A stretch of DNA of 37,386 nt from Candidatus Cloacimonadota bacterium (GTDB lineage Bacteria; Cloacimonadota; Cloacimonadia; Cloacimonadales; Cloacimonadaceae), in contig JAKPXC010000120.1 of assembly GCA_029567705.1 (NCBI GenBank), forward strand, positions 1 through 37,386. The letters are read 5' to 3'. Below the pieces are notes generated by a model. That model did not search any database. It was not told where the DNA came from and saw nothing but the letters and a program-made list of their open reading frames with translations. A program made the translations under genes and the position numbers. Of the stretch, positions 22,367 through 34,524 are shown in pieces. Position 1 is the first letter of the stretch. Each line of letters opens with the position of its first letter.

Positions 22367-22924
22367 TCAATCCCCCGGATGGTTGATATTGCGCAGGATG
22401 CCGGGATCGTCCAGCTCGAGATTGAGGATATCGAGTCCTGAGTGGTGGATGAGAGCGGCCAAGCCTGGCTGCGGCAATTCCAGATGCCAATCCTGAGAAG
22501 CGGGTATGATGATGGGATGCCCGCTTCTGCCTTGATAGGCGGGACGGATAATCGCAGCGGGATGAGCTGCTGAAGCCTTGGCCAGTGCTTGGAGAGTGGA
22601 GGCACGCACGTAAGGAAAATCTACCGGGAAGATCAGGTAATGGCTGCAATCGGGGTTTTCCTGAAAGCCCAGGCGCAAGCTGGAAAGCATGTCCGGCGTA
22701 TCACGATCCAGCACCGGGCAGAGCCTTTCCAGTCCTGCTTCCCGGCAAGTCTTCAGAATGCGTTCCAAAAAGCTTTCACCCGTCTCCAGCAAGGCTGCCG
22801 CTTTGGGCTTACCATAGCGGATACCCTTGCCGGAGGCGGGAATAATTACACAGAGATCAGGCCAGATGGTTGAATTCCTCGATGGCTTTATCGAGTTCTT
22901 CGACTGTCTCTTCAAAGATCTCAT
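22367..22924 (-). CDS. mocA: Molybdenum cofactor cytidylyltransferase-like protein (MocA family)
   Basis: 185 aa in the longest form. The NTP-transferase fold is seen in CVIIPASGKGIRYGKPKA (the LAAGxSxRxGxxK-type nucleotide-binding motif), LIFPVDFPYVRASTLQAL, and PAYQGRSGHPIIIP, the GHP motif of MocA/MobA relatives. The family transfers CMP to Mo-molybdopterin to make the dinucleotide cofactor that molybdenum hydroxylases need, which fits the hydroxylase genes upstream in this operon. The start is uncertain: ATG 22924 gives a 68-bp overlap with the previous gene and a basic 23-residue tail not expected in the family, with no Shine-Dalgarno. TTG 22915 or a non-standard start nearer 22860 are alternatives. 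It is the last gene of the operon. Confidence 0.8.
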   Translation of the reverse strand: MRSLKRQSKNSIKPSRNSTIWPDLCVIIPASGKGIRYGKPKAAALLETGESFLERILKTCREAGLERLCPVLDRDTPDMLSSLRLGFQENPDCSHYLIFPVDFPYVRASTLQALAKASAAHPAAIIRPAYQGRSGHPIIIPASQDWHLELPQPGLAALIHHSGLDILNLELDDPGILRNINHPGD

Positions 22925-24305
22925 GCCAATACTCGGGTTCCCACTGAGCCAGGATTTCTTCGTAGGTCTTGCCTTGCTGTTCCACCCAAGTGTAATACTT
23001 CAGGTTGTGAACTCGCTTGCGGTCTCGGTAGTTAAGCTCCTGGAAGTTGTCGTAGCTTTGAGCCAACAGACAGGCTTCATAATCACGCATTGCCTGATCG
23101 CGTTGATAGGCTCCACGGGCTGCCTGCATCTCTTCCAGACGGGAAGTATACATTCCGGCTGAATCTGTGAAGCAGGTGAAGATCACATCGTTCTCATCCA
23201 ACTCGAAGTATTTGGCTTGTTTGATGGCAGAGAGCAGATTGCCGATGGATGATATACCCAGAAGCTCAAGCTGTTCAACAATTTCTGCGGATATGCCCTG
23301 CGAAGCCAGGAATTCCTTGCCAGCCGGCTCGTTGAAGAGCCTCAGGCTACGCATGCAATCTTCATCCCGGATGGCGGCAACGGCATCGGTATTTCGCACG
23401 TTGTGCACCCAGGGAACGTGTTTATCGCCAATGCCTTCAATACGATGTCCACCAAAGCCGTTCATCAGCAAAGTGGGGCATTCATAGGCTTCACTGGCGG
23501 TTACGATCAGTTTGGGATAGTACTTGCGCAAGAAATCTCCTGCGGCGATGGTGCCGGCACTGCCCGTGGCAGAGACGTAACCTTGAAAGCGGGTCTTATC
23601 AGTCTTGATCCGGTTGTATATTTCCAGGATGGCATTTCCGGTTATATGGTAGTGCCAGAGGGGATTCCCAAACTCATCAAACTGGTTCAGGATCAGGTAA
23701 TGAGGATCCGGACGCAGCTCGGCGCACTTGTCGTAAATCTCTTTTACGTTGGATTCACAACCGGGTGTGGCGATCACTTCGGCACCGATGCTTTCCAGCC
23801 AGGAAAAGCGTTCCGCACTCATCTCTTCGGGCAGGATGGCAACAGCGTGACAGGCCAAAAGAGCGCAGTCAAAGGCCCCACCCCGGCAGTAATTACCGGT
23901 GGAGGGCCAGACGGCTTTGTGATAATCCGGATCAAACTCACCCGAAACCAAGCGGGGAGCCAAACAGCCATAGGCAGCGCCAACTTTGTGAGCGCCGGTG
24001 GGGAAGTATTTGCCCACCAAGCCGATGATGCGGGCTTTTACACCGGTGATGGCCGAGGGGATCTCCAGGTAGTTCACGTCTCCAAAGAGACCTGTTTTGA
24101 TGTCGTTCTTCCAGTTGATTCGGAAGAGATTCAGGGGATTGATGTCCCACAGTCCGATAGGCTGGAGTTCCTGCTTAATATCTGCAGGAATGAGAGTGGG
24201 ATCCTTCATCTGCGCAAAAGTGGGCAGGATGATGCCGTGTTCTTTGCAACGGCGGGCGTTCTTGAGAGCAATCTCAGGATTGTAACTGGGCATTATTTTA
24301 GACAT
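22857..24305 (-). CDS. Large PLP-dependent fold-type II enzyme (lyase/cysteine-synthase-like)
   Basis: 482 aa. Fold-type II PLP landmarks are present: lysine K107 in FPTGAHKVGAAYG, the asparagine-loop-like STGNYCRGGAF (135-145), the phosphate-binding glycine loop SATGSAGTIAAG (245-256) and a late TDSAGMYTSR. It is about 80 residues longer than YgeX (diaminopropionate ammonia-lyase), with a C-terminal helical tail rich in E, W and Y, and the motifs differ, so I do not call it YgeX. Position in a ygeW/ygeY/ssnA operon suggests it removes ammonia from, or substitutes on, a small amino acid such as 2,3-diaminopropionate; that is inference. GGAG sits upstream of ATG 24305. The 165 bp upstream hold only an AGTAAAAG repeat. 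Confidence 0.78.
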   Translation of the reverse strand: MSKIMPSYNPEIALKNARRCKEHGIILPTFAQMKDPTLIPADIKQELQPIGLWDINPLNLFRINWKNDIKTGLFGDVNYLEIPSAITGVKARIIGLVGKYFPTGAHKVGAAYGCLAPRLVSGEFDPDYHKAVWPSTGNYCRGGAFDCALLACHAVAILPEEMSAERFSWLESIGAEVIATPGCESNVKEIYDKCAELRPDPHYLILNQFDEFGNPLWHYHITGNAILEIYNRIKTDKTRFQGYVSATGSAGTIAAGDFLRKYYPKLIVTASEAYECPTLLMNGFGGHRIEGIGDKHVPWVHNVRNTDAVAAIRDEDCMRSLRLFNEPAGKEFLASQGISAEIVEQLELLGISSIGNLLSAIKQAKYFELDENDVIFTCFTDSAGMYTSRLEEMQAARGAYQRDQAMRDYEACLLAQSYDNFQELNYRDRKRVHNLKYYTWVEQQGKTYEEILAQWEPEYWHEIFEETVEELDKAIEEFNHLA

Positions 24306-24470: not shown

Positions 24471-24857
24471 TCACTTTCTGATTGGGAAAAGACGCTTGAT
24501 ACCATCTTTTAACGAAGGGACATTGAAGTTGATCAAGAGACCGGTTGGCATCCCAGACAGAGTTAAATAACTGATCAATTGAGCCTCAAATACATGGTTC
24601 AGATCAAGTACCGACTTTAGTTCAACTATGACCAGGTTTTCTACAATCAAGTCTGCCCGTAGTCCTGCATCCAGAAGCTGTCCTTTATATACAAGCGGAA
24701 TCTGTTTTTCCCGTTCATACATCAATCCTCTGATGTCCAACTCCTTGCAGAAGCTTTGCAGATATATCTTCTCCAACAGACCTGGCCCCATGGTTTTGTG
24801 TACTTCAATGGCTGCACCAATGATCTTCTGGCAAAGTGAATCTAGGTTTTCTTCCAT
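24471..24857 (-). CDS. GxxExxY protein (PD-(D/E)XK nuclease-like fold)
   Basis: 128 aa. It has the name-giving motif exactly (GLLEKIY, residues 26-32), then IPLVYKG, LRADLIVENLVIVELKS with the D/E-x-K-like pattern, and QLISYLTLSGMPTGLLINFN near the end, all typical of the GxxExxY family (PF13366). The family is predicted to have a nuclease-like fold; its role is not established. It lies between two catabolic genes in the same orientation but has no link to their chemistry, and it is bordered upstream by a dispersed non-coding motif (24901-24936), so it is probably an insertion into the operon. Confidence 0.9.
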   Translation of the reverse strand: MEENLDSLCQKIIGAAIEVHKTMGPGLLEKIYLQSFCKELDIRGLMYEREKQIPLVYKGQLLDAGLRADLIVENLVIVELKSVLDLNHVFEAQLISYLTLSGMPTGLLINFNVPSLKDGIKRLFPIRK

Positions 24858-24937: not shown

Positions 24938-26110
24938 TTACTCCTTGTAGAAAGAAGAAAGCTTGGCGGCTGGTTCTTTGATCTTGCTATTGAAGATCAT
25001 AGAGGCGATAACAAAAGGTTTGAACCCGGCTTCCTGATAGGTATGCAGGCGGTAGCGTTCGAAGACGGAGGCCGCCACTTCTCCCTGTTTACAGGAGACT
25101 CCGGAGATATCTGCTGGGAGGCAGTGTTCATAGAGTGCGTTGCCATTCCTGGTGAGCGCCATCATCGCTTCGGTGCATTCCCAATCCATGTGGCTGGCGT
25201 TCTGGGCCAGGCAGGCCTGTTCCAGGTCTTTCAAAGCTTGCTTTTCCCCGGCACGTAGTAGGCGGGTGCGTTCCTGCATCACAGCCATGGGTGCCCAGCT
25301 TTTGGGATAGACGATATCGGCACCATCAAAGGCATCCTTCATATCGTGTGTGACGCGGAAGCTGCCACCACTTGCATGGGCAAAATCTCCGGCTGATACC
25401 AGGGTCTCGGGCAGTAGGTCATAGCCTTCCGGATGCGCCAGCACCACTTCCATGCCAAAGCGGGTCATGAGATTTATCACTCCCTGCGGCACGGATAGGG
25501 GCTTGCCATAGGAGGGCGAATAAGCCCAGCTCATGGCGATTTTCTTGCCTCTGAGGTTTTCCAGGCCTCCAAAGTAATCCTTCAGCTTGAGCAGATCTGC
25601 CAGGCTTTGGGTGGGATGATCCAGGTCGCACTGCAGGTTTACCAGAGTTGGACGCTGCGCCAGCACTCCTTCCCGGAAGGATTCGCTCACAGCTTCGGCC
25701 ACTTCAACCATATAAGAATGGCCTTCGCCCGGATACATATCGTCCCGGATGCCTATGGCTTCGGTGAGGAAGCTGATCATGGCTGCGGTTTCACGGACAG
25801 TTTCGCCGTGCGCAACCTGGCTTTTCACTTCGTCCAGTTCGGATAAAGCCAAACCCAAGGCATTTACGGCAGAGGCATAACTGAAGCGGGTGCGGGTGCT
25901 GTTGTCCCGAAAGATGGCGATGCCCAGGCCGCTATCGAAGATCTTGAAGGGTTTCTTCTGACGATGCAGTTCCTGCATGATCTCGGCCACCAGCATCACG
26001 GATTTGAGGTTGTCCGTGCTGTTTTCCCAGGTGAGCAGGAAATCCTTGCCATATAGATCGGACTTGAGCTGAGCCAGTTCGCTCAGCAGTTGTTTGATCT
26101 TGTCGTTCAT
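24938..26110 (-). CDS. ygeW: Knotted carbamoyltransferase YgeW
   Basis: 390 aa, close to the usual length. The carbamoyl-phosphate-binding motif FRDNSTRTRFSY (STRTR at 71-75) and the catalytic HPTQ (165-168, in DLDHPTQSLADLLKL) are intact, and the C-terminal half holds AMSWAYSPSYGKPLSVPQG and EHCLPADI. The family is related to aspartate/ornithine transcarbamylase with a deep trefoil knot; its proposed substrate in purine/ureide catabolism is a ureido compound such as 2,3-diureidopropionate, releasing carbamoyl phosphate for ATP formation. It follows the [2Fe-2S] subunit gene after ~100 bp with no visible gene. Confidence 0.95.
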   Translation of the reverse strand: MNDKIKQLLSELAQLKSDLYGKDFLLTWENSTDNLKSVMLVAEIMQELHRQKKPFKIFDSGLGIAIFRDNSTRTRFSYASAVNALGLALSELDEVKSQVAHGETVRETAAMISFLTEAIGIRDDMYPGEGHSYMVEVAEAVSESFREGVLAQRPTLVNLQCDLDHPTQSLADLLKLKDYFGGLENLRGKKIAMSWAYSPSYGKPLSVPQGVINLMTRFGMEVVLAHPEGYDLLPETLVSAGDFAHASGGSFRVTHDMKDAFDGADIVYPKSWAPMAVMQERTRLLRAGEKQALKDLEQACLAQNASHMDWECTEAMMALTRNGNALYEHCLPADISGVSCKQGEVAASVFERYRLHTYQEAGFKPFVIASMIFNSKIKEPAAKLSSFYKE

Positions 26111-26212: not shown

Positions 26213-26698
26213 CTACCTGCTAACTTGCTTCTCGGCCCGCATTACTGAGGCCGCTTGTTCAACAGCATCGATGATTTGTTGATAACCGGTGCAACGGCAG
26301 AGATTGGCGTTGATGGCTTTGCGGATCTGTTCCCGGCTGGGAGCCAGATTCTTATGAAGCAGGGCATAAGCAGAGAGCACCATGCCGGGGGTGCAGAAGC
26401 CACACTGAATGGCACCGCAATCGATAAAAGCCTGCTGGATGGGATGGAGCTTGCCATCCTGACTTTGCATGCCTTCAATGGTGATAAGCTTCTTACCCAG
26501 AGCGTCTTTGAGCTTCAGTTTACAACTGCGTACGGCCTGCATATCCATCAGGATGGTACAGGTGCCGCAAACGCCGATATCGCAGCCGATCTTGGTGCCG
26601 GTGAGGCTCAAATCTTCCCGGAGCCAGTGCACCAGGCTCTTCTCCAGCAGTTCCTCGGGGATTTCATGGATCTTGTCGTTAACTGTGATCTGCATCAT
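26213..26698 (-). CDS. Molybdenum hydroxylase [2Fe-2S] subunit (XdhC/CoxS type)
   Basis: 161 aa, the standard length for the small iron-sulfur subunit. The ferredoxin-type cluster is held by C39, C44, C47 and C59 (CDIGVCGTC...C). The second, helical-domain cluster is held by C97, C100, C132 and C134 (CGFC and CRC, in IQCGFCTPGM and NLCRCTGY). It passes electrons from the molybdenum site of the next-upstream gene's product. ATG 26698 overlaps the large-subunit stop in ATGA (4 bp), so the two are translationally coupled. No FAD subunit is next to it. Confidence 0.95.
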   Translation of the reverse strand: MMQITVNDKIHEIPEELLEKSLVHWLREDLSLTGTKIGCDIGVCGTCTILMDMQAVRSCKLKLKDALGKKLITIEGMQSQDGKLHPIQQAFIDCGAIQCGFCTPGMVLSAYALLHKNLAPSREQIRKAINANLCRCTGYQQIIDAVEQAASVMRAEKQVSR

Positions 26699-28914
26699 TT
26701 TATCCTCAGCGGTTGGTCTTTGTAACGGATGCCGGTGGCATGATAGATGGCATTGGCAATTGCCGGAGCCATGATTTCATTGGTAGGTTCCCCCACTCCC
26801 TTGGCTCCGGAGGGTGTCTGTTTATCCGGATGCTCGATCAGGATAGCGGTCATTTCCGGTAGATCAACGGCACGTGCCAGTTTATAGGTGTGCAGATTGG
26901 TGGGACGCACCAGACCGTTTTCCACTGGCAGATCTTCAAAGAGGGCATATCCTGCACCCATGGCCATACCGCCATAGAACTGACCCTTTACCAGTTCAGG
27001 ATTGATGGCTTTACCCACGTCGTGAGCTGCCACCATATTGAGCAAAGTTACCTTCTTGGTCTTGGGGTTCATCTTGAGCTCCACGGCCTGGCAGGCATAG
27101 ACCCAGGTGAAATAGGCGTTACCCTGTCCAGTTTCCTCATCCCAGCTAACCCGGGGAGCTTGAAAGACCCCAAAGGCATAGGGATAAATCTGTTTGCTGA
27201 AGCAGAGTCTGATGGCCTCTTCCCAGCTCATGAGCAGTTTGCCGGAGGCATCCAGCACTTGGGAATTCTCCAGCTTGATCTCCGGCACTTCCAAGGCTTC
27301 TGCGATGATCTTCCTGAGCAATTCCGCAGCTTTAACAACAGCTCCCCCTCCCAGCAGAGTTCCCCGGGAAGCCACTGTGGTACCGCCATCGGGGATATTG
27401 GAGGTGGAGGGCAGCCGGTAGCGGATCAGTTCCTTGGGAATGCCCAGGTGTTCGCTGGCAATCAGGATCATGGCGGTTTCGGAGCCCTGGCCGTTTTCGT
27501 GAACTCCTGTCTCAATCAGTACAGAGCCATCCGGCTGAACGTTGATGATGGCAGAATTGAAGTCCACTCCCTCAGCACCGAGACTCATCCCCCGGTAGCT
27601 GATGGCGAAGCCGATGCCATACCATTCTTCGGCTATGGGATTGCCAAAGCTGCAGAGCTTGCGCTTCTTCTCATAGTTAATTTCTTTGAGAACGGTATCC
27701 ATGGCCTGAGAGAGAGAAACCACGTGGGTATCCAGCTTCTGGCCTGTGATTGTAGTGTCATCCTGCTTGAGCATATTGATGCGGCGCATGGCCACTTCAT
27801 CTATGCCCAGCTTCTCACCGGCCATTTCGATAAGCTGCTCGATGGCGAAATTCACCTGAGGGGAACCAAAGCCCCGCATGGCTCCACTGAAAGGATTATT
27901 GGTATATACCCCAAAGACATCACAATGAACATTGGGAACCCTGTAGCTGCCACAGCACTGCACGGTGGAACGCCAGGTGACCCAGGGAGTAACAGAGCAG
28001 TAAGCTCCCCCATCGGCTACCATGCGCACTTTCACAAATTCTATCTTGCCGCTATTCTTCAAGCCCATCCTGTACTGCATTTTGTAAGGATGGCGTTTAT
28101 AGCTCTCCCGCATACTCATTTCACGGCTGTAGGTAAGCTTTACCGGACGCTTCAGCAGCCAGGCACAGAGTGCAGCTCGGGCACAGACCAGCGCGGCAGT
28201 ATCGTCCTTGCCGCCAAAGCCGCCACCCATAGGCACCGTCTTCACTTCCACTTCACAAAGCTTCACGCCCAGAGTGGAAGCCACAAAGCGCCGGGTGGAG
28301 AAAGGATGTTGCATTGAACCGATCACTTCCATCACCCCATCCGGACGAAGATGACACAAGGCAGCTTCAGGCTCCATATAGGCGTGTTCGATCCGGCCGG
28401 TGGTGAAGGTCTCTTCCAGAATCAGGTCGGAATGCTCTTCTCCTTTTTGGATATCTCCGGTGCGGACGTGATGTATATTGCAGATGTTTGAGCCATGTTC
28501 CGGATTGATCAGAGGAGCGTTCTCCTGTAGGGCTTCTTCCGGATCAAGCAGGGCAGGACGCATCTCCAGTTCCACTCTCACCAGTGATGCTGCCTTCAGA
28601 GCCAGCTCCCGGCTTTCTGCAACGACCAGAGCCAGGACGTCTCCTGTGCTTCGTACTGTCTTATGCGCCAGCGTGGGGTAATCTTTGATGATCTGGCCTA
28701 ACTTGATCGTGCCGGGTATATCTCCAGCAGTAAAGACTGCCACCACACCCGGCAGCGCTAGAGCGTCCGCCGCATCTATCTTCAGAATGCGTGCAGAGGC
28801 GCAATTGGGATAAACCGGTGCTGCATGCAGCATTCCAGGCATCGTGTAATCATCGGTGTACTTGGCGATACCGGTTACCTTGGCAAGAGCATCGTTGCGA
28901 AAAACTTTGTTCAT
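26695..28914 (-). CDS. Molybdopterin-binding subunit of a xanthine dehydrogenase-family hydroxylase
   Basis: 739 aa, the right length for a stand-alone large subunit. It has the N-terminal a/b hammerhead domain (KVTGIAKYTDDYTMPGMLHA) and then the molybdopterin domains with GGGFGGKDD, the active-site regions RIEHAYMEPEAALC, FSGAMRGFGSPQ (substrate Arg), ASRGTLLGGGA and GAKGVGEPTNEI (catalytic Glu). All residues expected of a purine-type hydroxylase are present; the FGGK motif ends in D where E is commoner. It likely oxidises a purine or a related heterocycle; specificity is not readable. Its ATG overlaps the lipoprotein stop and its own stop overlaps the small-subunit start, both in ATGA. Confidence 0.93.
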   Translation of the reverse strand: MNKVFRNDALAKVTGIAKYTDDYTMPGMLHAAPVYPNCASARILKIDAADALALPGVVAVFTAGDIPGTIKLGQIIKDYPTLAHKTVRSTGDVLALVVAESRELALKAASLVRVELEMRPALLDPEEALQENAPLINPEHGSNICNIHHVRTGDIQKGEEHSDLILEETFTTGRIEHAYMEPEAALCHLRPDGVMEVIGSMQHPFSTRRFVASTLGVKLCEVEVKTVPMGGGFGGKDDTAALVCARAALCAWLLKRPVKLTYSREMSMRESYKRHPYKMQYRMGLKNSGKIEFVKVRMVADGGAYCSVTPWVTWRSTVQCCGSYRVPNVHCDVFGVYTNNPFSGAMRGFGSPQVNFAIEQLIEMAGEKLGIDEVAMRRINMLKQDDTTITGQKLDTHVVSLSQAMDTVLKEINYEKKRKLCSFGNPIAEEWYGIGFAISYRGMSLGAEGVDFNSAIINVQPDGSVLIETGVHENGQGSETAMILIASEHLGIPKELIRYRLPSTSNIPDGGTTVASRGTLLGGGAVVKAAELLRKIIAEALEVPEIKLENSQVLDASGKLLMSWEEAIRLCFSKQIYPYAFGVFQAPRVSWDEETGQGNAYFTWVYACQAVELKMNPKTKKVTLLNMVAAHDVGKAINPELVKGQFYGGMAMGAGYALFEDLPVENGLVRPTNLHTYKLARAVDLPEMTAILIEHPDKQTPSGAKGVGEPTNEIMAPAIANAIYHATGIRYKDQPLRIK

Positions 28915-29681
28915 CTAAACTCCAGTCCCACTCCAAAAGTGAGAGTGGGTTGAATGTGATAATCTCCCTCTTTAACAGGGTAGTAGAATATACCTAGCTC
29001 CGGAGCGGTGATCGTGACTATGCCAAACTTGAAGCTGGGAGAGGCAACCAGCCCTGCAAGATAACTCTCGTAAGTCTCCCAATTACTGTTTCCACCTGCT
29101 CTGCGATACAAGAATCTATTATAGGCGATCTTGGGACAAAGTGTGATTGCGAAGACGTCTTCCCTGCGGTATGTGATTAAAAGGGGAAGCTCCCCACCTA
29201 GCACCTTGTAAAGCATTCTATACTCACTGGTACCTCCGGGATTGGTTTCCATGCCATCCTCACCACTGTTATAATAGATGGAGGGCATAATTGCAAAGCG
29301 GAATTTCTCTACCGGTTGGTTTAAAGCGTATTTCAAGCTTAGTCTGCCATTGTTCATGGGGCTGGATAAGTTTGAGCTAAAGGACAGTTCAGCATGATCC
29401 AAAAGCCCGTAGTTGAGCTTAAGTCCGGGAGTTGATGCTGTTCCATCGCTTTCCTGGGGATCTGGATTGTCGGGATCGTTCAGGTAGTCCGAGAACATGC
29501 TGTGAATCATCAGAGCGCTAGTGGTATATCCCGTTATCCGGATTTTACCCTGAGGCAAGGTCTCGGCTGTTTCCAGCATGCTGCTGTCGATGGTGGCACA
29601 GGCCCCTAGGAAGAGCAAAAGAGACAAAAGCAACAGCTCAAGCAAACGCCTGCTTTGCAAAAGAAGCCTGAATTCAAACAT
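28911..29681 (-). CDS. Predicted outer-membrane lipoprotein inside the catabolic operon
   Basis: 256 aa from ATG 29681 (AAGGAG 8 bp upstream; ATG overlaps the hydantoinase stop as TAATG). An in-frame GTG two codons earlier is less likely. A basic n-region and long leucine-rich stretch end in LGAC (C28), a lipobox; Ala at +2 favours outer-membrane targeting. The rest is strand-rich with alternating aromatic/glycine patterns (LKLNYGLLDHAELSFSSNL, FAIMPSIYYNSGEDG) and ends FGVGLEFR, like a small lipid-anchored beta-barrel. I recognise no family. The 4-bp ATGA overlap with the hydroxylase large subunit makes it part of the operon. A link to substrate uptake is only inference. Confidence 0.78.
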   Translation of the reverse strand: MFEFRLLLQSRRLLELLLLSLLLFLGACATIDSSMLETAETLPQGKIRITGYTTSALMIHSMFSDYLNDPDNPDPQESDGTASTPGLKLNYGLLDHAELSFSSNLSSPMNNGRLSLKYALNQPVEKFRFAIMPSIYYNSGEDGMETNPGGTSEYRMLYKVLGGELPLLITYRREDVFAITLCPKIAYNRFLYRRAGGNSNWETYESYLAGLVASPSFKFGIVTITAPELGIFYYPVKEGDYHIQPTLTFGVGLEFR

Positions 29682-30661
29682 TAGCACATCTCCTTGTCAT
29701 ATTGGTTCATCAATCTTGCGGGCGTGAGGGAAACCAAAGAGATCAGACTATCCAAGCTAATCTTTCCGGTCTTCACCAAGCCGTCATATAAGCTGTCCCA
29801 AAGGCATCCCAAGCCGGCGATCCCACAGGGAACACGTTCGGGCACATCCTTGTAGCGGTCTTTATCCTCCAAACTGAAAGCACAGTGATCGGTGGCGATG
29901 ATATCAAAGCAGCCATCCTGCAGGAGTTCCACCAGTTCCCCCCTGGATTTCTCACTGCGGAAGGGAGGCGAGCAGATCCAGCGATGCGCATCTTTACCGG
30001 TTAAGCGCTCCTCATTGCAGAGCAGATAATGCGGGGCAGTCTCACAGGTGATGAAGGGATTGTGATTCCGGGCTTCGTGGATAAGGAGGGCGGAACGGGG
30101 CGAGGAAACGTGGACAATATGCACCGGATAGAGATGCTTGATGGCCAGGTCCAGCACCTTTTCCACTGCCTTGTTTTCGGCAATCTCTGGACGCCTGAGG
30201 CAGTGATCGTGGGGGCTATGGAAGGGATTTTTGCCAGAGTATTCCTCAATTGTCTCATTATCCTCACAATGCACCAGCATCCTGGGTTTTAGATCACTCA
30301 GTTCCAGCATCCAGCGTTCAAGCTCTTCATAAGACCTATACAATCCGGCAGCTTTGTAAGTAGTATAAAACTTCAGATCCGTATCCGGAGCAAGGATTTG
30401 ACGCAGCTCTTCAATGCCGGTCTGTAACGGAGTGAGATGCCAGAAGACCTTACCGGCAAAGTTCGCCGCTGCATCCTGTCTCATACTCTGCAGCTTGGTG
30501 GCCAGGCTGTGTTCCGCTTCTTCGGTTACAAAAGCTCCAATTCCGGCCAAACCCGGTACCCGGTTCAAATCCGCAAAGCCATCCCGAAGCTGATATCCGG
30601 CTATCCTCTCTCCCACATGCACATGAAAGTCATGTAGGGCAGCATTCCGATGCTGTTGCAT
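29681..30661 (-). CDS. Short hydantoinase/dihydroorotase-like amidohydrolase
   Basis: 326 aa from ATG 30661 with GGGAG 10 bp upstream; a TTG codon precedes it. The full set of cyclic-amidohydrolase metal ligands is visible: H13 and H15 (DFHVHVG), the lysine expected to be carboxylated K97 (DLKFYTTY), H131 (VHCEDNE), H184 (HIVHVSS) and D258 (ATDHCAF). ETAPHYL lies between the last two. It starts right at the barrel, so the N-terminal and most of the C-terminal beta-sandwich of the usual ~460-aa hydantoinases are missing. It corresponds in position to hyuA of the ygeW-type clusters and would open or close a cyclic ureide. Substrate unknown. Confidence 0.87.
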   Translation of the reverse strand: MQQHRNAALHDFHVHVGERIAGYQLRDGFADLNRVPGLAGIGAFVTEEAEHSLATKLQSMRQDAAANFAGKVFWHLTPLQTGIEELRQILAPDTDLKFYTTYKAAGLYRSYEELERWMLELSDLKPRMLVHCEDNETIEEYSGKNPFHSPHDHCLRRPEIAENKAVEKVLDLAIKHLYPVHIVHVSSPRSALLIHEARNHNPFITCETAPHYLLCNEERLTGKDAHRWICSPPFRSEKSRGELVELLQDGCFDIIATDHCAFSLEDKDRYKDVPERVPCGIAGLGCLWDSLYDGLVKTGKISLDSLISLVSLTPARLMNQYDKEMC

Positions 30662-30738: not shown

Positions 30739-31926
30739 CTATACCTTGAAGCTGGAGATATCCTTCAGTCCATGCCCGGTGATGAGCAGCACAACCTGTT
30801 CTTCTGGCTTGATTATGCCTTGTTCCAAAGCCGCTTCCAGCCCAGCCAGCGTTGCTGCCGAGGAAGGTTCGGCAAAGATTCCACACTGAGCAGCCAGCTT
30901 GATCTGAGCTTCCGAGATTGCTTCATCACTCACCCGGATGGCTGCTCCATTGGTTTCTTTCAGAGTTCGCACAGCCCAATGCGCATTGGAGGGAGTCTTC
31001 ACGGAGATGGAATCCGCCACGGTCTGCGGCTTTAGCGCATCCCGGTAAACCCCGCTTTCCCAGTAGGAACTAATGGCATCGGAGCTTTCCGCCTGCACGG
31101 CTAAGAGCCGGGGAAGCTTCTCGATCAGCCCAGTACGCTTCAGATCAGCAAAAGCTTTATGTATCCCTGCTAAAATTACTCCATCACCCACAGGTACAAT
31201 AATCCAATCCGGCACCTTGAAGCCGTTTTGCCAAAAGATCTCCAGCCCAGAGCTCTTCTTGCCCTCGATGGTGAGGGGATGATAGGCAGTATTGCGGTTC
31301 AGGCAGCCTTCAGCCACACTGTATTCCAGAGCAGCCTTGAAAGCATCGTCATAAGTGCCATCCACGGCATGCAGTTCTGCTCCATGAGCCTTAATCTGGG
31401 TAAGCTTGGCTGCGGGTGCCGAAGCCGGAGCAAAGATCACCGCCTGTATCCCGCAGGAAGCGCAGAGAGCCGCCAGAGACGATGCTGCATTCCCCGTTGA
31501 AGCGCAGGCGATCTTGGAAATGCCCAGACGCCGCGCTTCTGCCACCATCATCACAGAAGCTCTATCCTTGAAGGAACCGCTGGGAAGCAGGCTGTCATTC
31601 TTGATCCAGAGATTCCTCAGTTCCGGGAGTAGTCTCCGCACCGGGAAGAAAGGCGTCTCGCCCACCGGCAGAGGCGGGAAGTGCCGGCTTTCCAGCACGG
31701 TGAAACGCTGTACGAAATCCTTCAGAGACAAATTCCGGTAGTCTGCAAAATCCAGCTCCTGCGCCAGGGCAGGATAATCCAGATAGGCCTCCAGCACTCC
31801 CGGCAGAGGCATTCCGGGCTTGTAATCTATACTGCAGGTGGGGCAGAGATAGGTCACCTCATCCCGCTGGTATTTCCTGCCGCAGCTTGTGCATTGCCAG
31901 TGACTAAAATGCAGGCGTCGTTTCAT
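30739..31926 (-). CDS. Threonine synthase-like PLP enzyme with zinc ribbon
   Basis: 395 aa. An N-terminal zinc ribbon (C12, C15, C28, C31) is followed by the fold-type II PLP core: Schiff-base lysine K120 in LPSGSFKDRASVMM, ACASTGNAASSLAALCASCG, and the glycine loop VPVGDGVILAG. The architecture matches the threonine-synthase family. Position between ygeY and the hydantoinase, away from any threonine-biosynthesis gene, suggests recruitment for catabolism, for example beta-elimination on a diamino acid; this is inference. There is no strong ribosome site; only 6 bp separate it from the ygeY stop, so it may be coupled. Confidence 0.85.
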   Translation of the reverse strand: MKRRLHFSHWQCTSCGRKYQRDEVTYLCPTCSIDYKPGMPLPGVLEAYLDYPALAQELDFADYRNLSLKDFVQRFTVLESRHFPPLPVGETPFFPVRRLLPELRNLWIKNDSLLPSGSFKDRASVMMVAEARRLGISKIACASTGNAASSLAALCASCGIQAVIFAPASAPAAKLTQIKAHGAELHAVDGTYDDAFKAALEYSVAEGCLNRNTAYHPLTIEGKKSSGLEIFWQNGFKVPDWIIVPVGDGVILAGIHKAFADLKRTGLIEKLPRLLAVQAESSDAISSYWESGVYRDALKPQTVADSISVKTPSNAHWAVRTLKETNGAAIRVSDEAISEAQIKLAAQCGIFAEPSSAATLAGLEAALEQGIIKPEEQVVLLITGHGLKDISSFKV

Positions 31927-31932
31927 ATAACT

Positions 31933-33126
31933 CTATAGTGAAAGCTGATAGATCAGCCCGGCATAAAAAGCTGCAGCACCGCTGAGATGCTCGATGGGGC
32001 AGGCTTCATTAGGAGCATGGGCATAGATTTCGTTGCCGGGTCCCAGGCCGATGCAAGGGATCTTGTGCATACCGGCGATGGCCACTCCATTGGTGCTAAA
32101 TGTCCATTTATCCACCAAAGCATCCTTGCCAAAGAGTTCTTTGTAAGCCTTGGCACCTGCCACCACTCCAAAGTGATCTTCCGGAGTTACCCAGGTGGGG
32201 AAATACTTCTCGGTGGGGTAGACCAAGCCAGTGAAAGCAGCTTCTTCATAGAGCGGAATCCTGATCTCGGCCTCGGATTGACCCGCCAACAGACAGGCTT
32301 CGCGCACTTCCGCCAAAGCAGATTCTTTGGTCTCACCCCAGGTGAGCCGACGATCCAGATGAATATAAGCACTATCCGGCACAGCACATTGGGAAGGCCC
32401 GGTGAAATAGACTTCCGTCACGCAGATGCTGCCTTTTCCCAGGAAGGGATCACTCATCAAGCGCTCGTGCAGCTTTTCTATCTCAAGAGCTATACGACTG
32501 ATTCTGTAGATCGCATTATCCCCGCGTTCGGGAGCAGAACCGTGGCAGGAAAGGCCTTTCACGTGCACTTCAATCTCCATGCGTCCACGGTGTCCCCGGT
32601 AGATATTCATATTTGTGGGCTCGGTGATCACCACCAATTCCGGCTTGATCTTCTCTTCTTGGATCAGGTACTGCCAACAGAGTCCATCACAATCCTCTTC
32701 CATCACCGTGCCGGTGAAATAGATGGTGAAGTCCTTTTCCAGGCCGAGTTCCTTGATGATGCGTCCGGCAGTCACCATGGAAGCCATTCCGCCTTCCTGG
32801 TCAACGCTTCCGCGTCCCCAAACCTTGCCATCTTTGAGATGTGCGTCAAAGGGATCGAAATCCCAAAGCGAGAGATCCCCGGGATAAACCGTATCGATAT
32901 GGGCATCAAAAGCAATCACGCGGGGACCGCTGCCGATGCGTCCGATCACGTTGCCCAGGCCATCAATTCTCACTTCGTCAAAGCCCTGCTTCTCCATCTC
33001 GGCTTTAATCCGGTAGATCACATCCTTTTCCTTGGTGGAAAAGGCGGGAATGCGGATCATATCCATCAGGAATTCGGCAGTTTCCTGCTCGTACTTCCTG
33101 CTAAGCTCATTAATCCTGTTTATCAT
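31933..33126 (-). CDS. ygeY: YgeY family selenium metabolism-linked hydrolase (M20 type)
   Basis: 397 aa. Dizinc M20 motifs are present: H76/D78 in FDAHIDTV, D109 in GRGSVDQEGG, and EED at 143-145, with the dimerisation domain beginning RGHRGRMEIEVHVKGLSCHGSAPERG and a late H in YAHAPNEACP. It cleaves an amide or ureide bond of a small substrate; in the ygeW/ygeX/ssnA clusters the exact substrate is not settled. AAGGAG lies 6 bp before ATG 33126, and the gene begins 9 bp after the ssnA stop, so the two are co-transcribed. Confidence 0.94.
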   Translation of the reverse strand: MINRINELSRKYEQETAEFLMDMIRIPAFSTKEKDVIYRIKAEMEKQGFDEVRIDGLGNVIGRIGSGPRVIAFDAHIDTVYPGDLSLWDFDPFDAHLKDGKVWGRGSVDQEGGMASMVTAGRIIKELGLEKDFTIYFTGTVMEEDCDGLCWQYLIQEEKIKPELVVITEPTNMNIYRGHRGRMEIEVHVKGLSCHGSAPERGDNAIYRISRIALEIEKLHERLMSDPFLGKGSICVTEVYFTGPSQCAVPDSAYIHLDRRLTWGETKESALAEVREACLLAGQSEAEIRIPLYEEAAFTGLVYPTEKYFPTWVTPEDHFGVVAGAKAYKELFGKDALVDKWTFSTNGVAIAGMHKIPCIGLGPGNEIYAHAPNEACPIEHLSGAAAFYAGLIYQLSL

Positions 33127-33135
33127 GATAACTCC

Positions 33136-34467
33136 TTATAATCTATCCCAAAGCTTTCCAGCCAGTTCTCGGCTTTTGGCTTTGATTTCTGCTTCATCGA
33201 TATCCAGCAGCAGTTCCCGGTTCCACATCAGAAAACGTCCTGCCACCATGGTGCTGTCCACAGCAGCCTGTGAAATGCCATAGATCACGTGACCCATCCA
33301 GGTCTCGGCATTAAGCGGTGTGTGCGGATCATAATCCACCAGGATGAGATCGGCAGCAGCGCCATTGACCAGACGTCCCAAAGGCATCTGCCAATACTTG
33401 GAAGCAATCGCCGGATTATTGAACAGTAGCGTGGAAGCCACTTCCATGAAGGCTGCGGTGGGATTGTTTTGCTTCAGATGCTGCGCCCACATGCCTACCC
33501 GGAGTTCTTCCAGCATATTCACCGTCATGGCGTCTGTCCCCAGGCCCACCATCACGCCTTTTTGGCTCATCTTCACCAGATCGGCAATACCCACGGCATT
33601 GTTCAAATTGCTTTGGGGATTGGTCACAATGGCTGCTCTGCGGGCTGCCACAATCTCCAGCTCGGAATCATCCAGATAAACTCCATGCGCCAGAATACTG
33701 TTAGAGTTGATCAAGCCAAAGCTATCCAGCCTCTGAACCACTCTTTTGCCATAATGCTCCAGATTATACTTCTCATCCGAATCTGCTTCCGCAGCATGGA
33801 TATGAGTGCCGCAATCCATCTCCTGCACCAGCGTGGAGATGGTTTCCAGGCTCTTATCGCTTAGCGTGAAGGCAGCATGCATGCCAAAGAGTCCCTTCAG
33901 GAAGGGATCGTTTTCTAGCTGGCAAGTCCTGATCCAATCTGCATTTTCAGCTATTCCCTCGGCAGTCTTGGCTTCGCCGTCCCGGTCTGAGACCTCATAG
34001 CAAAGGTTGGCCCGGAGCCCGGTTTCCTTCACGGCTTTGGCGATCTGCGAGAGAGAACCGGCAATGGAGAAGGGCGAAGCGTGATGATCTATGATCGTGG
34101 TGGTGCCTTTGCGGATAGCCGTCAGCAAAGAGACCAGCGCACTGATGTAATTATCTTCTTCCAGAAGCTTCTTATCCAAGCGCCACCAGAGGTTTTCCAG
34201 CACCTGATTGAAGTCCTTGGAGGGTGCCGCCTTGCCCAGTCCGGTTACCAAGCTGGAATAGAAATGGTGATGGGCATTGATCAAGCCAGGCATAATGATC
34301 TTGTCTGTGGCATCGATGCGCTCTGCCTGCAGCAGCGAGAATTCTGCTTCCGGTGCAATCTGCAGGATCTTGCCGTCGGCTATCAGAATTGCCTGATCAT
34401 GCAGCACCGGATTCTGAGGATCAAAGCTCAGGATCGTGCCGCCTCTGAGAATGTATGTGTTTTGCAT
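33136..34467 (-). CDS. ssnA: Amidohydrolase SsnA (chlorohydrolase/deaminase family)
   Basis: 443 aa from ATG 34467, matching the E. coli SsnA length; GGAG lies 6 bp upstream. A longer in-frame start at 34524 coincides with the -35 box and is rejected. Metal motifs are MPGLINAHHHFYSS, IDHHASPFS, GMHAAFTLS, THIHAAEAD, LAHGVYLDDSE and VGLGTDAMT, the last holding the catalytic Asp. SsnA acts as an amidohydrolase/deaminase in the purine and selenium-linked cluster; the true substrate is not known. It is the first gene of the operon and is divergent from the acetyltransferase gene. Confidence 0.94.
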   Translation of the reverse strand: MQNTYILRGGTILSFDPQNPVLHDQAILIADGKILQIAPEAEFSLLQAERIDATDKIIMPGLINAHHHFYSSLVTGLGKAAPSKDFNQVLENLWWRLDKKLLEEDNYISALVSLLTAIRKGTTTIIDHHASPFSIAGSLSQIAKAVKETGLRANLCYEVSDRDGEAKTAEGIAENADWIRTCQLENDPFLKGLFGMHAAFTLSDKSLETISTLVQEMDCGTHIHAAEADSDEKYNLEHYGKRVVQRLDSFGLINSNSILAHGVYLDDSELEIVAARRAAIVTNPQSNLNNAVGIADLVKMSQKGVMVGLGTDAMTVNMLEELRVGMWAQHLKQNNPTAAFMEVASTLLFNNPAIASKYWQMPLGRLVNGAAADLILVDYDPHTPLNAETWMGHVIYGISQAAVDSTMVAGRFLMWNRELLLDIDEAEIKAKSRELAGKLWDRL

Positions 34468-34496
34468 CTTAACTCCTTGTATATTGTGAACAAGCA

Positions 34497-34524
34497 ATTG
34501 TCTAAGCTTCTGTTTTTTTGTCAA
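34497..34524 (-). promoter_or_regulatory. Candidate promoter of the catabolic operon
   Basis: Minus strand: TTGACA (34519-34524), a 16-bp A-rich spacer, then GACAAT (34497-34502), 29 bp upstream of the ssnA start. It is the only perfect -35 box reading into the operon and would drive all eleven genes. No clear operator palindrome was seen in the 190-bp divergent region. A TTGACA at 34604-34609 points toward the acetyltransferase but lacks a -10 box. Confidence 0.5.

Follow-up and report, generated by a model that had tools for sequence, protein, structure and literature searches.

A lipoprotein gene within a reductive uric-acid operon

The window, a stretch of 37,386 nucleotides from a Candidatus Cloacimonadota genome (G000), carries an operon on its minus strand with the gene order ssnA, ygeY, a threonine-synthase-like PLP enzyme, hyuA, a lipoprotein gene, xdhA, xdhC, ygeW, a GxxExxY/PDDEXK_3 gene, a PALP-fold enzyme and a MocA-like gene. 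The ssnA aminohydrolase (33136..34524; PRK07203/TIGR03314), the ygeY M20 hydrolase (31933..33126; PRK13004/TIGR03526) and the ygeW carbamoyltransferase (24938..26110; TIGR03316/PRK07200) all pass curated NCBIfam cut-offs at the equivalog or subfamily level; the model match to SsnA begins at residue 25, and the true start is probably inside the open reading frame. The threonine-synthase-like PLP-dependent enzyme (30739..31926) matches PF00291 and exceeds the cut-off of TIGR00260. A molybdenum hydroxylase of the XdhD/XdhA type is represented by an xdhA-like large subunit (26695..28914; MoCoBD_1/2 and Ald_Xan_dh_C) and an xdhC-like 2Fe-2S subunit (26213..26698; Fer2 and Fer2_2). The GxxExxY/PDDEXK_3 gene (24471..24857; PF13366, 6.7e-39) lies between ygeW and a second PLP-dependent enzyme (22857..24305; PF00291), which has the PALP fold, occupies the ygeX/dpaL position and carries no equivalog-level name. 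The MocA-like molybdenum cofactor nucleotidyltransferase (22367..22924) matches NF045665/TIGR03310 below cut-off.

The hyuA-like gene (29681..30661) encodes a cyclic amidohydrolase of the hydantoinase/dihydropyrimidinase type that scores below cut-off both for Amidohydro_1 and for its best match, the D-hydantoinase model TIGR02033. The protein is 73% identical to the copy in a genome of the same genus, HGW-Cloacimonetes-2 (G001). It is short at 326 aa; most relatives have about 320-370 aa, and those of G041, G006 and G060 have 430-440 aa. The short protein apparently lacks both ends, from which the small beta domain is built in hydantoinases. No ygfK gene was found in the cluster, and matches to TIGR03315 elsewhere in the genome are below cut-off (best 322.7 versus the required 835.3 bits).

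By its gene content this operon is a reductive uric-acid cluster (ssnA-ygeY-PALP-hyuA-xdhA-xdhC-ygeW-PALP-mocA), of the kind characterized in E. coli and C. difficile (PMC12507026). That study mentions neither Cloacimonadota nor any outer-membrane protein. Like the E. coli cluster it describes, xdhD-ygfK-ssnA-hyuA-ygeW-ygeY-ygeX, the window's operon unites ssnA, a hyuA-like gene, ygeW, ygeY, a molybdenum hydroxylase and PLP enzymes; it differs by the added predicted barrel lipoprotein and GxxExxY gene, the missing ygfK, the short hyuA and the presence of two PLP enzymes. Related loci were gathered with XdhA as the query, the lipoprotein family alignment holding no sufficiently conserved stretch, and among named genomes the relatives recovered were Candidatus Cloacimonadota. 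The same gene order also occurs in several other phyla, there without the lipoprotein.

The lipoprotein gene (28911..29681, minus strand) encodes 256 aa between an ATG at 29681-29679 and a TGA at 28913-28911. The stop codon of the hyuA-like gene (TAA, 29683-29681) shares one base with this ATG in the sequence TAATG, and the TGA overlaps the start codon of xdhA (ATG, 28914-28912) as ATGA. Both overlaps, which an earlier note on this DNA had pointed out, are read directly. The N-terminus, MFEFRLLLQSRRLLELLLLSLLLFLGAC, contains a long hydrophobic stretch that by inspection ends in the lipobox L-G-A-C, which that note had likewise recognized (residues 25-28; 29598..29609, minus strand), with Ala at position +2. 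Lipidation is predicted at Cys28, as read from the translation and from the conserved Cys column of the family alignment, which holds this residue in all 25 members aligned. By the Lol rule known from E. coli, Ala (that is, a residue other than Asp) at +2 leads to release to the outer membrane; by this non-Asp rule, the sole basis for the location, we infer that the lipoprotein would reside in the outer membrane.

A homologue at the same junction in the related genome G002 is colinear, free of internal stops and 34% identical over residues 13-255. Because of this homologue and of 76 family matches with a conserved motif, we regard the open reading frame as a translated gene and not a chance reading frame; the barrel model described below is consistent with this. 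The GC content over the gene is slightly lower (0.48-0.49) than the 0.50-0.56 with which it was compared, a difference too small to argue for recent transfer. A promoter and terminator scan gave a result no better than shuffled sequence.

A dispersed and fast-evolving family

Scans of the lipoprotein and 25 family members against Pfam and NCBIfam returned nothing convincing, a PDB sequence search with the family profile returned nothing significant, and no paper on outer-membrane lipoproteins of Cloacimonadota turned up in the literature collection searched. A profile built from the 25 members and run against 125 genomes of the phylum found the family at 76 places in 42 genomes, nearly all of them in the family of the source genome (f1) and in one clade of another family (f9). 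Members share an N-terminal lipoprotein motif, with the pattern CA-x-x-D-x-S-x-x-E/D-T-A-x-P/T-L-x-x-G, and a beta-rich body, and many have C-terminal aromatic/aliphatic ends; a minority has an ordinary signal peptide or lacks a recognizable lipobox pattern. The G000 and G002 lipoproteins are only 34% identical, compared with 84% for XdhA, which leaves little conserved sequence for a possible ligand site. Judged from these sequences, the family is uncharacterized, fast-evolving and multi-copy, and is seen here in Cloacimonadota.

Only six of the genes, in five genomes, are located in the reductive uric-acid operon. Neighbors at the other 70 of the 76 places vary and include a MATE exporter with an aminotransferase (g3), giant secreted proteins (g6) and an M23 peptidase with an FRG-domain gene (f9). 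In the f9 loci (L250, L251, L252, L253, L257, L259 and L261) the member sits between the M23-peptidase and FRG-domain genes, beside the ribosomal rplM-rpsI-rpsB-tsf operon.

Recurrent placement at the hyuA-xdhA junction

Both hyuA and xdhA could be read in 35 related operons of Cloacimonadota, and we examined the distribution of the gene in these. It is present between hyuA and xdhA in five (G000, G002, G010, G025 and G031) and absent from 30. In 29 of these 30 the gap between hyuA and xdhA is within 60 bases, and the remaining one (G041) holds a secreted S8 protease on the opposite strand (L108, 9221-11491). The operon of G001, from the same genus as the source genome, is among those without the lipoprotein gene. 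Two family members and a GIY-YIG gene occupy the junction in G010; there, the second, non-lipidated member (L085, 7031-7903) directly follows the lipidated one, and the GIY-YIG gene is upstream.

Although the operon has eight junctions, family members are always found at this one, in the coding direction and closely coupled. In the XdhA tree the carriers fall into three separate lineages, {G000, G002}, {G010, G031} and {G025}, and well-supported branches force four changes. The family tree recovers the same three sets; the AU test rejects a common clade for the operon members (p=3.5e-5) and with it the idea that all operon copies were inherited from one ancestral operon copy. Read most simply, the pattern reflects three gains at one junction and one loss, in G001. 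An operon copy could in principle be the source of all other family copies.

The family also recurs near other molybdenum hydroxylases. In G025 and G036, an AllH-AllF-AllG-cyclase-Mo-hydroxylase-CoA transferase-amidase cluster is bordered by members of the family, three in all; AllFGH corresponds to the oxamate carbamoyltransferase of E. coli allantoin breakdown (PMC11326118). In these loci (L030, 1097-14382, in G025; L035, 833-13174, in G036), which encode AllH, AllF (FdrA), AllG, the cyclase, the Mo-hydroxylase, a type III CoA transferase and the amidase, family members stand at the head of the cluster in G025 and at its tail in G036. In three f9 genomes, a convergent Mo-hydroxylase cluster is found 2-3 kb away from a family gene. 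Altogether, 12 of the 76 family genes have a Mo-hydroxylase large subunit encoded no more than 8 kb away, versus about 1 expected. Grouping by synteny with the Mo-hydroxylase families excluded leaves about 4 independent locations versus ~0.5 expected (Poisson p about 0.001), in tests that are post hoc, having been chosen once the pattern was seen, and that use a rough background density.

Since 70 of the 76 places are outside the operon and 30 of the 35 junctions do without the gene, the lipoprotein is not a fixed part of the pathway. The earlier note's proposal of an operon-linked outer-membrane component thus loses that part and keeps three others, namely the lipoprotein, a barrel-compatible fold and the tight integration into the operon. 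Its author had seen homologues lying mainly outside such operons as speaking against the idea, and that is the distribution observed; the recurrent placement rescues the interpretation in part. The reading we lean toward, which we hold tentatively and put just short of an even chance, is an accessory outer-membrane barrel that is made with purine catabolism and has been recruited repeatedly.

The genes may instead encode dispersed barrel lipoproteins of the cell surface that serve the envelope in general, for instance in surface variation, avoidance of phages or predators, or adhesion. Copies would then have landed in an insertion-tolerant operon and be kept through its expression and not because of purines. 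We consider this a serious possibility, somewhat below even. It agrees with the many family places elsewhere, several of them beside MATE, ribosomal or surface-protein genes, with the fast divergence of the lipoprotein and with the loss in G001. The operon does tolerate insertions, because GxxExxY, GIY-YIG and S8-protease genes have also been taken up, the first of these at many junctions and the other two at hyuA-xdhA in G010 and G041. However, the three separate entries were all at one junction of eight, in the coding direction and closely coupled, and the family recurs at a second N-heterocycle/ureide cluster. The shared junction and the members at the Mo-hydroxylase/AllFGH cluster argue against plain coincidence.

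Several other insertions were observed in urate operons. GxxExxY/PDDEXK_3 genes occupy many junctions (24471-24857, minus strand, in the window; L146, L151, L155, L160, L168 and L220), in Cloacimonadota and also in KSB1 and UBP2. In f1, 13-14 of 85 PDDEXK_3 matches are in or beside the urate operon, at several junctions, and in G000 as in G001 the operon copy is the only one found in the genome. S9 prolyl oligopeptidases lie within the cluster in UBP2 and Edwardsbacteria (L162, 8334-10529; L165, 4405-6507). In G037, from another family, a signal-peptide protein is encoded between ygeY and the PLP enzyme (L110, 11290-12213, minus strand), with a weak DUF3078 match of 24.4 bits against a cut-off of 25.

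Predicted fold and transport context

The AlphaFold2 model of the lipoprotein, computed from an alignment of 4 sequences, has a pLDDT of 67, a pTM of 0.65 and 10-11 antiparallel strands arranged as a barrel of about 10, in keeping with the beta-rich body noticed earlier. The 11 matches that Foldseek returned from the PDB at E<=0.001 are without exception outer-membrane barrels (OmpT, Pla, OmpX, Ail and FapF), with TM scores of 0.31-0.54. Structure prediction for a barrel, which the earlier note had suggested as a check, therefore gave a fold compatible with the outer membrane, at a model confidence that is moderate (pLDDT 67, TM below 0.55). The lipoprotein is likely a small beta-barrel of about 10 strands, as far as the model can be trusted. 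OmpT/Pla, OpcA and OmpX/Ail, the best Foldseek matches, have a similar up-and-down topology in this prediction, at ~10% sequence identity. Unlike the lipoprotein, for which lipidation is predicted, these proteins are not known to have a lipid anchor. The model of the operon member from G025 (L220, clade B) is weak, with a pLDDT of 56 and no PDB match at E<=0.001; its nearest structures are outer-membrane barrels.

No match to PF00860, PF02133, PF02608, PF07662 or PF03502 was found in the source genome, a draft that is 91% complete; Xan_ur_permease, NCS1, Bmp and CNT-type transporters and Tsx are thus missing from what was found there. The lipoprotein itself does not match PF03502 (Tsx) either. 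Among f1 genomes, PF00860 is absent from 48 of 50 and PF02608 from 47 of 50. Relatives without the lipoprotein show the same lack of known purine transporters, so the protein is not what fills this gap and does not account for uptake on its own.

A stronger and narrower form of the preferred reading, close to what was originally proposed, makes the protein a substrate-specific purine/ureide channel, Tsx-like in function. The operon position, the barrel model and the lack of Tsx in the source genome would suit such a channel. Like Tsx, a nucleoside-specific outer-membrane channel, the protein would be an outer-membrane barrel serving purine compounds. The lipoprotein differs from Tsx in showing no sequence match, in bearing a lipobox and so being predicted as lipidated, in being encoded inside a catabolic operon and in having fewer predicted strands. 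Tsx and NanC have 12 strands, and small barrels of about 10 strands seldom form wide pores, so a substrate-specific pore is not favored. The gene is, moreover, dispensable in most species that have the operon, and we judge the channel improbable. A periplasm-facing beta-sandwich lipoprotein acting as a scaffold or binding protein is more doubtful still: the moderate model confidence and the weak clade-B model would allow it, but the significant matches of the window's lipoprotein are to outer-membrane barrels only, and beta-hairpin-like repeats and OMP-like C-termini run across the family.

Discussion

According to the accessory-barrel reading, the lipoprotein would follow the Sec/Lsp/Lol route to the outer membrane and be embedded there as a barrel of about 10 strands. 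Through the TAATG and ATGA overlaps its translation would be coupled to that of the enzymes for reductive uric-acid breakdown, and it would presumably be co-expressed with them. It would then probably serve as an accessory surface part at which purines or ureides bind or cross the outer membrane, or by which the envelope is otherwise adapted to a purine diet. The family member taken into this position of the operon would differ from lineage to lineage, and some lineages would do without one. The apparent recurrent entry into the operon, about three times, hints at purine handling at the cell surface. We think it unlikely that this is an undescribed family of lipid-anchored small barrels, repeatedly recruited into purine/ureide operons, that imports substrate across the outer membrane in a genome with no recognized purine/nucleoside transporter.

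Uptake of purines and urate at the outer membrane is poorly described outside enterobacteria, and the source genome combines a near-complete urate operon with no recognized purine transporter. If the family is a surface partner of this pathway, it would provide a handle on purine feeding by uncultured syntrophs. If it is not, the operon would be a clear case of unrelated small genes repeatedly inserted at conserved junctions.
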